Origin: Thermotogota bacterium
Lineage (GTDB): Bacteria; Thermotogota; Thermotogae; Thermotogales; DSM-5069
Direction: 5' to 3'
Length of the DNA stretch: 64,000 bases
NCBI GenBank assembly: GCA_029551145.1
Contig: JAKPGA010000069.1
Coordinates: forward strand, 44,051 to 108,050
Shown: positions 27,296-36,963 of the stretch, piece after piece
Layout of the letters: each line of letters opens with the position of its first letter
How positions within the stretch are numbered: the stretch's first letter is position 1
Made by a program: the position numbers and the translations under genes
The notes under the pieces: generated by a model
What the model saw: the letters and a program-made list of their open reading frames with translations, nothing else
Told to the model about the DNA's origin: nothing
Database searches by the model: none

Positions 27296-28006
27296 TCACC
27301 AGTAATAGGCCTTCCTTCTTCTGAAAAATCCCCAAACCATCCCAATGACAAATCCTCCGGCATGAGCCCAGTAGGCCACCCCAGAATTCACCGCGCTGTC
27401 AGCTATTCCACTTATTATCTGAAAAACGAACCACACCAGCAGATACACACCGGCAGGTATTGCGATCAAAAATGGAAGGAAAAACGTTGGTACAAATGAA
27501 ATGACCCGGGAGTAGGGAAACAAAACATAATATGCTCCCATGACGGCAGAAATAGCACCAGATGCACCAACCATGGGTACCTGAGATCCAAGATTGAAAA
27601 GAAAGTGTACCGTCGCAGCGAGCAAGCCACTTGAAATGTAAAAGATCGCGAATCTGAAATGTCCCATATTATCTTCAACATTATCACCAAAGATTCCAAG
27701 AAACCACATGTTTCCAATCAGATGCGACCACCCTCCATGCAAAAACATGTGGGTCACGAAAGAAAGCCATTTTGGCGAATAGAGATCCAGTCCAGTTCTC
27801 AAATGCCAGATCTGACTCCAGCGCTGAGAAGTAAACCGAGCTGGCACGAGGCCAAAGTTGTAAAGAAACTGAATTAGCTCAGGTCTCGAAAGAGTTTGCT
27901 GATAAATGAAAAAAATGACATTGACCAAGATCAAAACATACACAACATAGGGTTTTCTTCTGCTCGGTATTGTGTCATATAAAGGGAACAAAGAATCACT
28001 CCTCAC
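27296..28006 (-). CDS. Rhomboid intramembrane serine protease
   Basis: GASGAISAVMG serine motif, AHAGGFVIG histidine motif, multiple TMs. Confidence 0.9.
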   Translation of the reverse strand: MRSDSLFPLYDTIPSRRKPYVVYVLILVNVIFFIYQQTLSRPELIQFLYNFGLVPARFTSQRWSQIWHLRTGLDLYSPKWLSFVTHMFLHGGWSHLIGNMWFLGIFGDNVEDNMGHFRFAIFYISSGLLAATVHFLFNLGSQVPMVGASGAISAVMGAYYVLFPYSRVISFVPTFFLPFLIAIPAGVYLLVWFVFQIISGIADSAVNSGVAYWAHAGGFVIGMVWGFFRRRKAYYW

Positions 28007-31186: not shown

Positions 31187-31436
31187 GTTGAACCTGCAGC
31201 AATTTGCATTTGAACTTGAGTACAAAACAGAAAAAACTAACTTTGAGACTATTTGTTCAAAAACAAGCCAGACTGAGTGTTTATAAATCACCTTTGGGAC
31301 ATCCCTCACATTTATCCAGTATCTCCGCACTTTCTTAAGTTACCAAACTGGAACATACAGTAAATAGGTAGGTAATATCTCGGCGTTATCCTCATCGTGG
31401 AGATTGATACTTTTTTCACAATTAGGAGGTGAAACT

Positions 31437-31676
31437 ATGGCAAAGTATCAGGTTACAAAGTCAATTGATGTGCGCGGAGAAGTCTGCCCGGTACCCGATG
31501 TTGAAACAAAAAGGGCTCTGAAAGGAATGAAGAGTGGAGAAATCTTAGAAGTATGGATCGATTACCCTATGTCAAAAGAGCGAATACCAGAATCTGTGAA
31601 GCAGATGGGACACGAGGTTCTTGAAATCGAGGAAGTAGGAAAGAGCGAGTGGAAGATCTACATAAAGGTAAAATGA
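31437..31676 (+). CDS. TusA/YeeD-like sulfur carrier protein
   Basis: DVRGEVCPVPDVETKRALKGMKSGEILEVWIDYP, CPxP motif. Confidence 0.92.
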   Translation: MAKYQVTKSIDVRGEVCPVPDVETKRALKGMKSGEILEVWIDYPMSKERIPESVKQMGHEVLEIEEVGKSEWKIYIKVK

Positions 31677-31691
31677 GCGGAGGCTGATACG

Positions 31692-32687
31692 ATGGCATGG
31701 ACTGGACTTGTGATCGGTTTTGTCTTCGGCATCATTCTTCAGAAAGGTCGAGTCTGTTTCAACTCAGCTTTTAGAGATGTATTGATCTTCAAAGATAACT
31801 ATCTTATGAAACTTGCAGCTTTGGCACTCGCACTTCAGTCCATAACACTACTACTTTTTGCACAGTTTGGAGCGATACATCTGGCACCCAAGCCACTGAA
31901 TTGGATCGCCAACATCATAGGTGGCTATATCTTTGGACTTGGCATGGTTCTTGCCGGTGGATGTGCTTCTGGTGTCACGTATAGATCTGGTGAGGGTATG
32001 ACAACAGCATGGTTTGCTGCAATCTTCTATGGACTGACTGCCTATGCTACCAGCAGCGGTATTTTCTCAGGCTGGTCTAAATGGGTAAGCAAGTTCAATA
32101 TCACTATTCAGAGCACCAATCCAGTTTATGCGTCTAAGATCGGTCCAACTGTATCAACAGTTCTCAATGTAAGCCCATGGGTTGCTACTTTGGTTTTTGC
32201 TGCTCTTCTCATGTGGTATGCCTTTGGAACTAAGACAACCCAGAGACCAACGAAGTTCAATTGGGTAATTGCCGCGATTTTGATAGCGATACTTGCTCCA
32301 ATTGCTTGGTGGACAAGTGCAAAGAGCGGCAGAAATTATGGTCTTGGCATCACAGGCGGTTGGGTGAACCTGTTCTCAGTATACACTGCCAACAAACCCA
32401 TCAACTGGGAAGGCGCCGAGATTATTGGAATCATCCTTGGTGCACTGGTTTCATCTCTGGCATCCAAAGAATTCAAGTTCAGAATGCCAAAGGATCCGAA
32501 GACCTATTTACAAGTGATGGTGGGAGGCGCGCTGATGGGCTTTGGAGCGGCAACCGCTGGTGGCTGTAACATCGGTCACTTTCTCACTGGTGTACCCCAA
32601 CTTGCAATTTCTTCACTAATTGCATCCGTCTTTTTCATACTCGGGAACTGGACGATGGCTTGGTTACTCTTTGGCAAGGAGAGATGA
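31692..32687 (+). CDS. YeeE/YedE-family membrane transporter (probable thiosulfate/sulfur-compound importer)
   Basis: Multi-TM; GRVCFNSAFRD, LAGGCASG, TAGGCNIGH with Cys at residues 22, 91 and 292. Confidence 0.9.
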   Translation: MAWTGLVIGFVFGIILQKGRVCFNSAFRDVLIFKDNYLMKLAALALALQSITLLLFAQFGAIHLAPKPLNWIANIIGGYIFGLGMVLAGGCASGVTYRSGEGMTTAWFAAIFYGLTAYATSSGIFSGWSKWVSKFNITIQSTNPVYASKIGPTVSTVLNVSPWVATLVFAALLMWYAFGTKTTQRPTKFNWVIAAILIAILAPIAWWTSAKSGRNYGLGITGGWVNLFSVYTANKPINWEGAEIIGIILGALVSSLASKEFKFRMPKDPKTYLQVMVGGALMGFGAATAGGCNIGHFLTGVPQLAISSLIASVFFILGNWTMAWLLFGKER

Positions 32688-32689
32688 TG

Positions 32690-33046
32690 ATGAAAATAAC
32701 TATACAGGTCATGGTACCGCCTTACACATATGAAGATCTCGACACAGCGATCAAGATTGCCGAAGCAGCTATTGAGAAGGGACATGAAGTTAGTCTGTTC
32801 TTGTTTGCAGATTCGGTCTTGTGCATAAACAAAAATGTGAAACCTATCAGAATTGACAGGAATATACCCCAAAAACTCAAAGAAATGATTGCAGCAGGCA
32901 AGCTAAGAGTTGATATCTGTGGAATATGCATGGATTATAGGGGTGTGACAGGCGAAATGATCGTTGAAGGAGCCAAGCCCAGTGGTCTTCCAGAACTTGC
33001 GCAACTGATTTACTCCAGCGATAGGTTCATCAGTCTTATGGCTTGA
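32690..33046 (+). CDS. DsrE/TusD-like sulfurtransferase subunit
   Basis: IQVMVPPYTYEDLDTAIKIAEAAIEKGHEVSLFLFADSV; VDICGICMDYRGV cysteine motif. Confidence 0.85.
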   Translation: MKITIQVMVPPYTYEDLDTAIKIAEAAIEKGHEVSLFLFADSVLCINKNVKPIRIDRNIPQKLKEMIAAGKLRVDICGICMDYRGVTGEMIVEGAKPSGLPELAQLIYSSDRFISLMA

Positions 33047-33055
33047 GGTGAGATC

Positions 33056-33409
33056 ATGAAGAAACTCTTGTTTGTGGCATATCAATCCCCTGTTGGAAGT
33101 ATTTGGGTCAACGAAGCTTTCAGGACTGCCTTCGGGATGTACGGTGAAGACCTCGAACCTGCCGTGCTATTACTTGACGAAGCCTGTGTTGCTCTGTCAA
33201 AGAAAACAAAACCAGAGTCGCTTGGGCTTCTGCCACTCTCTATATGTCACAGATATATCAAAAACTATGGAACCCCGGTGTTCGCTGTCAAAGAAGATCT
33301 CGAACAATTCAAAGTCAAAGAGCTCGACGAGAATTTCTCGGCAAAAGTTCTGACAAAGCAGGATCTAAAAGATTTTATTCACCAATTCGATTATGTAATA
33401 TTCATGTGA
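33056..33409 (+). CDS. DsrF/TusC-like protein
   Basis: QSPVGSIWVNEAFRTAFGMYGEDLEPAVLLLDEACVAL fold; position between DsrE and DsrH homologues. Confidence 0.75.
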   Translation: MKKLLFVAYQSPVGSIWVNEAFRTAFGMYGEDLEPAVLLLDEACVALSKKTKPESLGLLPLSICHRYIKNYGTPVFAVKEDLEQFKVKELDENFSAKVLTKQDLKDFIHQFDYVIFM

Positions 33410-33419
33410 GGTGAAGTCA

Positions 33420-33689
33420 ATGGCTCTTATTCTGATTAAGTTTGGTACTAATAATCCAGCTGAAAGGTTCAAACTTGCAAATGCGTCCTCTGACGATGAC
33501 GTTGTTTTGATTCAAAATGGTATTTACTGGGCTCTGAACGATGCCAAACAGTACACAGCAGCTCGGGTTTACGCCATAAAAGAAGATTTCTTAGCACGTG
33601 GATACGACGAGCCAGATTCCAAAGTTCCTCTGATCAATTATGCACAGTTCGTTGAATTGATTGAAAAACATCCAAAAACAATTTCCTGA
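33420..33689 (+). CDS. DsrH/TusB-like protein
   Basis: MALILIKFGTNNPAERF...DDVVLIQNGIYWAL. Confidence 0.75.
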   Translation: MALILIKFGTNNPAERFKLANASSDDDVVLIQNGIYWALNDAKQYTAARVYAIKEDFLARGYDEPDSKVPLINYAQFVELIEKHPKTIS

Positions 33690-33699
33690 AAAGTTGAGT

Positions 33700-33705
33700 T
33701 ATAAT
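33700..33705 (+). promoter_or_regulatory. Possible -10 element (TATAAT) of an internal promoter for the ArsR-TusA gene
   Basis: Perfect TATAAT in the dsrH-regulator gap; no convincing -35. Confidence 0.35.
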
Positions 33706-33718
33706 TTCAGTTGAAATA

Positions 33719-33737
33719 GCCGCGGTATGCCCGCGGC
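33719..33737 (+). terminator. GC-rich hairpin upstream of the ArsR-TusA gene (terminator/attenuator or 5' UTR structure)
   Basis: gccgcgg-tatgc-ccgcggc, 7-bp all-GC stem, followed by attgctttt. Confidence 0.5.
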
Positions 33738-33756
33738 ATTGCTTTTGAGGTGAAGA

Positions 33757-34326
33757 ATGCCTGGCAAGATTGATTTGGTCGAGCTGTTCAAAATTCTTTC
33801 CAATCAAAGGCGTCTGGAGATACTGATGTTGCTTATGGATAGCTGTTTGACAGCAACTGAAATTGCCGATAAATTGAAGATCGATATTTCAACAGCCTAT
33901 CGTTATCTACTTCAGATGCAAAATTTCGGTTTGTTGAAAACCATTAAATCAAAAGACGGAGATCGTTTCGATCTTTCCACTCCACACATCTTACGCATGC
34001 TTGAAGAAGCTACGAGCGTGTTGAAGAGTTCAAAAGGACAGGTGGCTGTTGGTGGGAGATTCACTCTGTACTATCATTCTGCAAACGATTTGCCACAACC
34101 CCAGAAAGTACTGGACCTGCGAGGTGAAGTCTGTCCTGTGCCTGATCTTATAACCAAAAGAGAGCTTGAGACAATGCAACCTGGGGAGACTATACTTGTC
34201 ATTGTTGATTATCCAATTTCCAAAGAAAGAATCCCAAGCTACTGCAGACGTCTTGGGTATGATCTTTGGCTTGTAGACGCTGGAGCAGAGGCAAAAATCT
34301 ACATAAGAAAGCCCTATCAAGGCTAA
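33757..34326 (+). CDS. ArsR-type winged-HTH regulator fused to a C-terminal TusA domain
   Basis: N-term LVELFKILSNQRRLEILMLLMDSCLTATEIADKLKIDISTAYRYLLQMQNFGLLK; C-term LDLRGEVCPVPDLITKRELETMQPGETILVIVDYPISKERIPSYC. Confidence 0.9.
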   Translation: MPGKIDLVELFKILSNQRRLEILMLLMDSCLTATEIADKLKIDISTAYRYLLQMQNFGLLKTIKSKDGDRFDLSTPHILRMLEEATSVLKSSKGQVAVGGRFTLYYHSANDLPQPQKVLDLRGEVCPVPDLITKRELETMQPGETILVIVDYPISKERIPSYCRRLGYDLWLVDAGAEAKIYIRKPYQG

Positions 34327-34485: not shown

Positions 34486-36204
34486 ATGAGCAGAAGTGTG
34501 ATCATCGATGGATCGGTTATATACACAAACTACAGTCAAATAATAGCCCAAAAAAAGTTTGAGCAGCTTTTGAGAGAATTCGTAGATATCCTCAAAGATA
34601 GAGGCAGCCCACTGTTGAACGCACTCAATGCCTTCAAGGTCAACAGCGATTATGATTTGCATAGATTTGCAGAATACATTCATCTGTTGACAATGAGGAA
34701 TATTAAGGAAATTACGAACATAATCTATTATGTAAATCCTAAGGAACTCGAGCGTTTCATAGAAGCTTTCTATACCTTTTGGCGCTCGAAACACAGGTTC
34801 ATGGTGCGTCACGAAAAATACGTTGAAGACTACAACAGGAGAGCAAGTATTGAATACACCATGACCATGGCAGGGGATCAGTTCAAAGCTGTTGTGAAGA
34901 ATTTGTACAGAGAGGTCATGATGAATGTTTCGAACTCATTCCCAACGGTGATGAGACAGCTCCCAAGCGGGGCACAGGTGATGTTTTTGGTTGAAGAGCC
35001 AAATGGGGAAAGATACCAAGAACATCAATGGATGCTGAAGATACCGACCGTCTGGGGAGCGATCTTCGATCCTCCTGCGATATTCTACACAAAGTCCAAT
35101 AAGAGAAAAGGAGTCTTGCCAATAATCGAAGACGCAATACTCGACAAGATATCACTCGATTCAAATGAGTGGTACAGGTTCACGATCTTTGTTGGAGATT
35201 TGCTCTTCTACAACTTTGTCCATTCTGAATACCTCGCTCATGGTGCAGGACTTGCGAACTTGTTTGAGCTTGCCACTCCAAAGGACCTAAAGCACAGAGA
35301 GCCAGACGGTATTCTCATATTTGGTTTGCCGACAAACAGGATTCCAAATTACAACGAAAAATGGCGAAACGGTGTCATATTCAAGGACAAAAATCGATAT
35401 GTTGGTGTCATACCGGCACTCGATGAGAACGACTATTTTGGATATATGAAAAAAACCACCTTGACGATTCACAATTTGATAAAGATTGATCACGGCAAAC
35501 TTCCAATCCATGATTCAATGGCAAGGATTACTCTAAAGAGTGGTAGGAGTGTTGTTGCGATGTTTGTGGGTGACAGCGGCGCAGGAAAGAGTGAGACACT
35601 CGATGCGCTCAACAGACTTGAGGAAGTAGCCCAGGTGGATACCATTATCGACGATATGGGGAGCCTGTCCATAGCAGATGGTCATGTAGTTGCTTTTGGT
35701 ACAGAAACAGGTGCTTTCGTCAGGCTCGACGATCTGCCACCTGGATTTGCTTACTCAACAATGGACAGGAGTATATTCATGAACCCAGATCAGATCAACG
35801 CACGTGTGATAGTGCCATTCAACAATTACAATGAAGTCATCACTCCAACTCACATAGATTTCTTCCTATACGCGAACAATTACACCGAAGTGAGCAATGA
35901 CCAAGAGCGCATAGTATTTTTCGAAGACGTCGAAGACGCCCTGAAGGTATTCTCAGAAGGAAAAAGAATGAGTAAAGGTACGACCTCTGAGACGGGTTTG
36001 ACTACCTCCTATTTTGCCAATCCATTTGGAGCGGTTCAAAGGCAAAAGGAACACCACAAAATAGCGGAAAGCTTCATGAAGAAGATGTTCGAAACAGGGG
36101 TAAGAGTCGGGGAAATAAGAACAATGCTCGGTGTCGAGGGCTATGAAAAAGAAGGTACGATGTTAGCAGCTAAGGCGCTTCTGAAGGTTATCGAAGAGAT
36201 GTGA
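34486..36204 (+). CDS. P-loop protein related to PEP carboxykinase/HPr kinase, function unknown
   Basis: AMFVGDSGAGKSETLDAL P-loop; DTIIDDMGSLSIADG; PEPCK-like C-terminal half. Confidence 0.6.
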   Translation: MSRSVIIDGSVIYTNYSQIIAQKKFEQLLREFVDILKDRGSPLLNALNAFKVNSDYDLHRFAEYIHLLTMRNIKEITNIIYYVNPKELERFIEAFYTFWRSKHRFMVRHEKYVEDYNRRASIEYTMTMAGDQFKAVVKNLYREVMMNVSNSFPTVMRQLPSGAQVMFLVEEPNGERYQEHQWMLKIPTVWGAIFDPPAIFYTKSNKRKGVLPIIEDAILDKISLDSNEWYRFTIFVGDLLFYNFVHSEYLAHGAGLANLFELATPKDLKHREPDGILIFGLPTNRIPNYNEKWRNGVIFKDKNRYVGVIPALDENDYFGYMKKTTLTIHNLIKIDHGKLPIHDSMARITLKSGRSVVAMFVGDSGAGKSETLDALNRLEEVAQVDTIIDDMGSLSIADGHVVAFGTETGAFVRLDDLPPGFAYSTMDRSIFMNPDQINARVIVPFNNYNEVITPTHIDFFLYANNYTEVSNDQERIVFFEDVEDALKVFSEGKRMSKGTTSETGLTTSYFANPFGAVQRQKEHHKIAESFMKKMFETGVRVGEIRTMLGVEGYEKEGTMLAAKALLKVIEEM

Positions 36205-36264: not shown

Positions 36265-36963
36265 TCATCTTGTGGAAAATCCAACCAGCAGTATGAAACA
36301 AAGTACCACAAGGCCTGCACAAAGCAGAGCAACAGTTTTCCACACAATGGTGATTGATTTCTTCCAGAAACTGTAAGCAGGCCTTGGTGTCATGATGTAT
36401 CCAAGTGCCATACCTGTCACAAACCCACCTATGTGGGCAGCGTTGTTTATTCCGCTTCCAGGAATGAAACCGTAGACTATGTTGAAGATTATCATTGGTA
36501 GAAGCGTATAACCGGTGAACTGTCTCATGAAAAATGGTGTATCACGGCGGAATCCCAGAGCAAAGAGTACTCCAACAAGACCAAAGATGGATCCACTTGC
36601 ACCAACTGATATGGCTCGGTAGTAAAGAAATTGTGTTGCCAGGTTTCCAACCACACCGGTCAGTAGATATATAAAGACGAATTTCTCGACACCATATATT
36701 GATTCTACTATGTTCCCAAAATAGAAGAGTGCATAGGAATTGAAAAGCAAATGCAAAAGGCCACCATGTACGAAAATCGCCGTGATCACTCTATACCATT
36801 CACCATTACTTACCAAAGGTCCATACTGTGCACCGAATCTTATGTACAGATATGCCTGGTTTCGCAAACTCGAAAAACTTTGAACAAAAAACATGAGAAC
36901 AACGACTATAACGTTTATCGCCAAGATGAGGTACGTTACCTTCCAATGCTTCAACGAATGCAC
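36265..36963 (-). CDS. Rhomboid intramembrane serine protease (second copy in window)
   Basis: VGASGSIFGLVG, NAAHIGGFVTG. Confidence 0.9.
   Translation of the reverse strand: MHSLKHWKVTYLILAINVIVVVLMFFVQSFSSLRNQAYLYIRFGAQYGPLVSNGEWYRVITAIFVHGGLLHLLFNSYALFYFGNIVESIYGVEKFVFIYLLTGVVGNLATQFLYYRAISVGASGSIFGLVGVLFALGFRRDTPFFMRQFTGYTLLPMIIFNIVYGFIPGSGINNAAHIGGFVTGMALGYIMTPRPAYSFWKKSITIVWKTVALLCAGLVVLCFILLVGFSTR

Follow-up and report, generated by a model that had tools for sequence, protein, structure and literature searches.

Dithiol sensors of the ArsR family have two conserved cysteines in their winged-helix domain (PMC12423496), and how sulfur reaches the known sulfane-sulfur sensors of this family is an open question (PMC11582611). 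In Hyphomicrobium the YeeE-like protein SoxT1B signals to the ArsR-type repressor SoxR, with TusA discussed as a possible link (PMC11582611). In regards to thiosulfate import itself, the TsuA-TsuB structure from Spirochaeta thermophila places the TsuB cysteine at the TsuA interface; Cys17 of TsuB reacts with thiosulfate, and in simulation the modified TsuB leaves TsuA (PMC11073785). Thiosulfate reduction is an important trait in Thermotogota. In Thermotoga maritima it is cytoplasmic, and the yeeE (tsuA) gene, which belongs to one transcription unit with dsrE and tusA homologues, is up 42.6-fold with thiosulfate but only slightly with sulfur (PMC9431562). No regulator of this induction is named in that publication.

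We analyzed a 64,000 nucleotide stretch of DNA from a Thermotogota bacterium (hereafter the window), in which tusA, tsuA, dsrE, dsrF and dsrH are followed on the same strand by a gene coding for an ArsR-TusA fusion:

31437 to 31676, + strand: tusA, TsuB-type carrier (PF01206, 88.6 bits; T. maritima ortholog TM0983/1JDQ)
31692 to 32687, + strand: tsuA/yeeE thiosulfate transporter (NF052577, 581 bits, cut-off 400)
32684 to 33046, + strand: dsrE/tusD-like gene (PF02635, 87.7 bits)
33056 to 33409, + strand: dsrF/tusC-like gene (TIGR03010/NF001238 under cut-off; kept in the operon across relatives)
33420 to 33689, + strand: dsrH/tusB-like gene (TIGR03011, 62.1 bits, cut-off 49.2)
33757 to 34326, + strand: ArsR-TusA fusion, predicted regulator (ORF, Pfam, homologues, AlphaFold2, Foldseek)
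33757 to 34032, + strand: winged-helix domain of the fusion, residues 1-92 (HTH_5; SmtB/CzrA fold)
34105 to 34311, + strand: TusA/TsuB-type domain of the fusion, residues 117-185 (PF01206; DYPISKERI signature)
34132 to 34134, + strand: Cys126 codon (CPxP), kept in 35/35 homologues

The next gene downstream (34486-36204) codes for a PEPCK-like ATPase with a weak Pfam match, and a PEPCK-like ATPase with 92% identity also follows the fusion in genome G002. Rhomboid protease-like ORFs flank the operon region, one at 27296-28006 (judged by eye) and one at 36265-36963 (confirmed by Pfam).

An ArsR winged helix joined to a full TusA domain

The fusion protein, P0001, is encoded by an ORF that occupies exactly 33757-34326 on the + strand and is 189 amino acids long. 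Residues 17-61 match the Pfam HTH_5/ArsR model (PF01022) at 30.1 bits, above the cut-off of 22, while residues 117-185 match the Pfam TusA model (PF01206) at 72.9 bits, above the cut-off of 28.6 and along the whole model (1-70 of 70). The NCBI HTH_metalloreg model gave 31 bits, under its cut-off of 55. The sequence-only reading had placed an ArsR helix-turn-helix (HTH) and a full TusA domain with the motif RGEVCPVPD in one ORF, and this is confirmed: both Pfam cut-offs are passed and the motif is present, with Cys126 as the cysteine of its CPxP. The likeness it had noted to the stand-alone TusA of the operon is also real, with 51% identity over residues 114-184, and these two are the only TusA domains found in the source genome.

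An AlphaFold2 model of P0001, built on an 11-sequence alignment, has a mean pLDDT of 83.5 and a pTM of 0.75, with two confident domains joined by a disordered linker at residues 96-107 (pLDDT <50). Foldseek matched the first half to SmtB/CzrA, with a TM-score by target of 0.78-0.85 for most chains and an rmsd of ~1 A for several, and the second half to TusA/TsuB. Among PDB entries, HlyU is the closest to the HTH.

Residue counts are from 35 full-length Thermotogota fusions. All 35 have the CPxP motif and SxERI, and the invariant residues are Cys126, Pro127, Pro129, Asp120, Gly123, Asp151, Ser155, Glu157, Arg158 and Ile159. Cys126 is the sole invariant cysteine; Cys30 of the HTH is present in 19/35, while the remaining 16 have Tyr, Asn, Phe or His at this position. 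In an alignment with HlyU the first HlyU sensing cysteine falls on P0001 residue 24, and the second, by what we take to be the HlyU numbering, falls on residue 90. None of the 35 fusions has a cysteine at residue 24 or 90, which puts the fusion outside the dithiol-sensor group by the defining feature of that group, although it may serve a similar purpose. We also saw no CxC metal site. Dithiol or metal-type ArsR sensing was rejected for want of a conserved cysteine pair. Taken by itself, the conservation of Cys126 could also stem from a need for it in the structure or in docking.

The fusion accompanies the thiosulfate-import operon in Thermotogota

At least 22 homologues of the fusion were found among the first 61 genomes searched, and with the phylum-wide search the number rose to ~39 of 104 genomes, with contig ends truncating a few. 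Operon and fusion occur together in 37 of the 104 (two cut by contig ends), the operon occurs without the fusion in four (G031, G037, G052 and G064), the fusion stands beside operon remnants only in two (G088 and G093), and the remaining genomes have neither. Eight genera hold both species with operon plus fusion and species with neither, indicating that the two were gained or lost together. The fusion is the last operon gene in Thermotogaceae and in Mesotoga/Kosmotogaceae, is convergent behind the operon in G015, G041 and G042, lies on the opposite strand ~1.5-1.8 kb past dsrH in Thermosipho/Marinitoga-like genomes, is the first gene in G013 and G033, and is on a different contig from the operon in G094. 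That the association persists while gene order varies argues for function over hitch-hiking.

T. maritima MSB8 (G021) carries the fusion in the same gene order, with an operon TusA identical to TM0983 in PDB 1JDQ. The fusion gene, located just after dsrH, is probably TM0978, a locus number that we take from gene order; TM0978 is listed as hypothetical (PMC4331810).

A scan of 85,488 species genomes, limited to the search pattern DYP[LI]S[KAG]ERI, returned full-length fusions in Thermotogota only, with stand-alone TusA as the matches elsewhere. No fusion was found in 14 genomes of other groups that have the same operon, nor was one found outside Thermotogota in the plasmids searched, and the open-licence literature, which is the literature that we searched, yielded no described ArsR-TusA fusion.

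Several loci are in decay or have been extended. In G088 a deletion removed tsuA and left an in-frame junction between the beginning of tusA and the last part of dsrE (L140 8183-8617), with the fusion and the promoter motif M1 described below kept despite this loss. Operon decay is also seen in G077 and G093 (L156 6755-7435; L141 762-3439). In G077 operon and fusion decay jointly, a single deletion having brought the beginning of tsuA up against the TusA portion of the fusion gene. In G093 a dsrH remnant is all that is left of the operon, and the fusion there has DCP rather than DYP. The tsuA of G010 is in two frames, from a frameshift or a sequencing error (L034 992-1962). In several lineages the operon extends into genes for a GcvH-like lipoyl protein and a dihydrolipoamide dehydrogenase-like flavoprotein (L140 5671-7420; L058 1805-3601; L157 7948-9749; L055 7830-9553), neighbours which suggest that sulfur from the relay goes into a step based on lipoate.

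The fused domain is no recent duplicate and bears the signature of a TsuA-adjacent TusA

A tree of TusA domains places 29/31 fused domains in one clade with support of 99/99, apart from all operon TusAs, so that a recent duplication of the operon TusA as the origin of the fused domain is rejected. The fused domains of G013 and G033 fall outside the main fusion clade, and this pair could represent a second fusion or a long-branch effect, with a single origin also possible.

DYP[LI]S[KAG]ERI is exact in 32/35 fusions and DYPxSxERI is present in 33/35, with one DYE and one DCP as the variants. The same pattern marks 57 loci without a full fusion, which span Chloroflexota to Lokiarchaeota and include a few Thermotogota; in 56 of these tsuA lies directly downstream of the signature-bearing tusA, and the remaining locus is at a contig end. 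Judged by this motif, the fused domain bears the signature that marks a TsuA-adjacent TusA. The NCBI TsuB/YeeD model NF041048, with a cut-off of 147.5, was reached neither by P0001 (15.3 bits) nor by the operon TusA (42.6 bits). In many Lokiarchaeota and further archaeal genomes the TusA of a tusA-tsuA-dsrE-like cluster bears this signature too (L084, L087-L128).

The tusA promoter carries a candidate operator and a Rex-type operator

Alignment of the tusA upstream regions revealed two conserved islands, M1 and M2, besides the ribosome site:

31339 to 31354, + strand: M1, GTTACCAAACTGGAAC, candidate operator for the ArsR-TusA fusion (phylum-wide conservation; cross-validated matrix search)
31387 to 31392, + strand: putative -10 (TATCCT; conserved TAnnnT, inferred from sequence)
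31404 to 31421, + strand: M2, TTGATACTTTTTTCACAA, Rex-type (NADH/NAD+) operator (same type as the TM0201 Rex operator)

M1 is a 16-bp motif with the consensus TTWACCAANYNGTAAY and TTAC...GTAA arms, and is also present in T. maritima MSB8. A matrix trained on Thermotogaceae/Thermotoga found M1 in 18/21 other fusion genomes, each with p<0.04, and a reverse-trained matrix found it in all 12 genomes, where p-values are per genome against dinucleotide shuffles and close relatives are not independent. M1 was not significant in G049, G101 and G103, although the fusion is present there. Genome-wide M1 counts are at chance level, so that the motif is specific to the tusA promoter. In the four fusion-less operons M1 was undetectable (p 0.16 to 0.92), bar a weak match at the wrong position in G052 (p 0.04) that was gone with the second matrix. 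M1 therefore tracks the fusion gene and M2 does not, and this together with promoter specificity makes M1 the best candidate operator of the fusion. M1 lies within 31200-31437, one of the two regions that the sequence-only reading had proposed for binding tests. The co-loss of M1 and fusion amounts to two independent losses (genera g12 and g22), and with fusion-less operons in two genera only, loss of M1 could be drift.

M2 lies just upstream of the tusA ribosome site, is conserved in most of the phylum, and is found with 0-2 mismatches in most genomes, with G003 as an exception. The T. maritima TM0201 operator in the Rex crystal structure is ATTTGAGAAATTTATCACAAAA (PMC8836258), and the 18 bases at its core recur exactly in G021 next to a hydrogenase-like gene. 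Other genomic copies of M2 precede rex, hydrogenase, bcd-etf and ADH genes, functions that were judged by eye apart from rex, which was confirmed by Pfam, and a Rex N-terminal domain is present in 18/18 genomes tested. The thiosulfate-import operon is therefore probably under NADH/NAD+ control. M2 as the operator of the fusion was rejected since it is a Rex site that persists in the fusion-less operons of G052 and G064.

A terminator-like hairpin precedes the fusion gene

The sequence-only reading had also proposed 33690-33757 as a binding region of the regulator. This region holds no conserved candidate site, and a 14-nt palindrome there, ATTTCAGTTGAAAT, was rejected as an operator given that relatives do not conserve it. 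What is conserved is a hairpin:

33719 to 33737, + strand: terminator-like hairpin in the gap between dsrH and the fusion gene, 7 G-C pairs then ATTGCTTTT

Relatives have stems of unrelated sequence at the equivalent gap. The folding energy of the region is not unusual relative to shuffles, and the case for the hairpin is made by its position and by the differing stems across lineages. If the hairpin terminates only part of the transcripts, the regulator would be made in smaller amounts than the relay proteins. A TAWAAT-like box often lies 5' of the hairpin, so the fusion regulator may also have its own promoter.

A proposed sulfur input to the operon and its alternatives

Our main reading, to which we give a probability of about 0.6, is that the fusion senses thiosulfate-derived sulfur through loading of Cys126 and, jointly with Rex, switches the operon. 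As a one-component sulfur sensor for the thiosulfate-import operon, the dimeric ArsR winged helix would bind M1 in the tusA promoter, and the TsuB-type domain would take thiosulfate or sulfane sulfur on Cys126, either from TsuA, TusA or DsrEFH or directly from thiosulfate. With Cys126 loaded the protein would bind DNA differently, and tusA-tsuA-dsrEFH would be switched on as thiosulfate comes in. Rex at M2 would add a redox condition, being released at high NADH, and the operon would be fully on with high NADH and thiosulfate present, which would suit a cell that needs an electron sink and has one at hand. What we infer from sequence and models is that the protein binds M1, that Cys126 is loaded, that the two domains are coupled, and which sign the control has. 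The earlier idea of a sulfur-sensing regulator of its own relay is partly sustained by the ArsR fold, the invariant carrier cysteine, the lack of a conserved HTH cysteine, linkage to the operon, M1 in the tusA promoter and the published thiosulfate induction; the site sought at 33690-33757 fell away. As routes of sensing, persulfidation by the relay, a direct reaction with thiosulfate and docking on the transporter are all compatible with the sequence.

The alternative that fares best is that the sulfur-loaded fusion is an activator that binds M1 upstream of a promoter with no recognisable -35 and recruits RNA polymerase, a prospect that we put somewhat short of even. The conserved TAnnnT is ~45-50 nt downstream of the M1 start in both Thermotogaceae and Mesotoga/Kosmotogaceae, even as the distance from M1 to the ATG differs by ~70 nt between them, and no -35-like hexamer was seen by eye in the tusA promoter. 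If TAnnnT is the -10, M1 would sit near -50, and this position with no visible -35 fits an activator, or a repressor that acts upstream. HlyU, the nearest PDB relative of the HTH, is named a transcription activator; however, repression is the usual mode of sulfur-sensing ArsR proteins, and the -10 is a putative one. The sequence-only reading had called the protein an ArsR-type repressor: the ArsR fold stands by Pfam and Foldseek, whereas repression was assumed, and with M1 upstream of the putative -10 activation fits equally.

Less likely is a role for the transporter, in which the fused TsuB domain would occupy the cytoplasmic side of TsuA as the usual partner does, the regulator would read the loading state of TsuA through its retention at the membrane or its release, and modification of Cys126 would weaken docking; as a joint claim we regard this as doubtful. 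The TsuA-partner signature speaks for it, as do the TsuB cysteine at the TsuA interface and the departure of modified TsuB in simulation (PMC11073785) and the use of the YeeE-like SoxT1B as signal transducer for the repressor SoxR (PMC11582611). On the other hand, stand-alone TusA would compete for TsuA, and G088 retains fusion and M1 without tsuA, although its deletion may be recent. A further speculative form of this, also with odds of about one in four, is that a regulator with a paralogue of TsuA's partner docks in that partner's place, samples the thiosulfate flux at the exit of the importer, and signals to the promoter by way of Cys126 loading.

M1, which lies upstream of the putative -10, could also belong to another factor. 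That it is the site of an unrelated regulator, with the fusion acting elsewhere, we consider improbable. Co-occurrence is the sole link of M1 to the fusion, and in most genomes with a separately transcribed fusion gene M1 is missing from the promoter of that gene. Yet the motif is operon-specific and was lost with the fusion while the Rex-type site stayed in G052 and G064, and a weak M1-like site with 3 mismatches lies upstream of the unlinked fusion gene of G094. Least probable is an ordinary redox or metal-type ArsR whose TusA domain is not the sensor, being either a relic or part of an enzyme for sulfur delivery. In its favour, Cys30 is present in 19 of the 35 fusions, so that some lineages could use a Cys30-Cys126 disulfide. 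Against it, Cys126 is the sole invariant cysteine, Cys30 is replaced in 16 of the 35, CxC was not seen, and all copies tested have a full and conserved TusA domain.

Returning to the reading of a Cys126-loaded sensor, the observation is stronger than first stated: the regulators form a conserved family with a sulfur carrier as the probable sensor domain, an operator can be predicted for them, and their likely target is known from publication to be inducible. The fusion is a candidate for the unnamed regulator behind the T. maritima thiosulfate response, and with M2 it suggests a double gate of redox (Rex) plus sulfur. Because the carrier is built into the regulator, the question of sulfur delivery becomes testable in one protein.

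Comparison with known systems

SqrR, BigR, YgaV, HlyU, SoxR and sHdrR share with the fusion the ArsR winged-helix fold and the regulation of sulfur genes, and SoxR, like the fusion, is also tied to a YeeE-like protein. These regulators sense via two winged-helix cysteines, whereas the sole invariant cysteine of the fusion is in the added TusA domain. The Ochrobactrum tritici regulator ChrB reportedly has a rhodanese domain mentioned in connection with it. ChrB is thus likewise a regulator discussed with a sulfurtransferase-type domain, which makes it a lead, but the rhodanese fold is not TusA and the response is to chromate.

TsuB/YeeD shares with the fused domain the CPxP cysteine, DYPxSxERI and encoding with tsuA; the difference is that the fused domain sits in a DNA-binding protein, with a separate TusA that can serve the transporter. 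The operon also shares a Rex-type operator with the Rex regulon of Thermotogales, but Rex leaves thiosulfate-specific induction unexplained, and M1 with the fusion would add the sulfur input. Finally, relative to SoxT1B, TusA and SoxR of Hyphomicrobium, the Thermotogota fusion would merge the last two steps in one chain.
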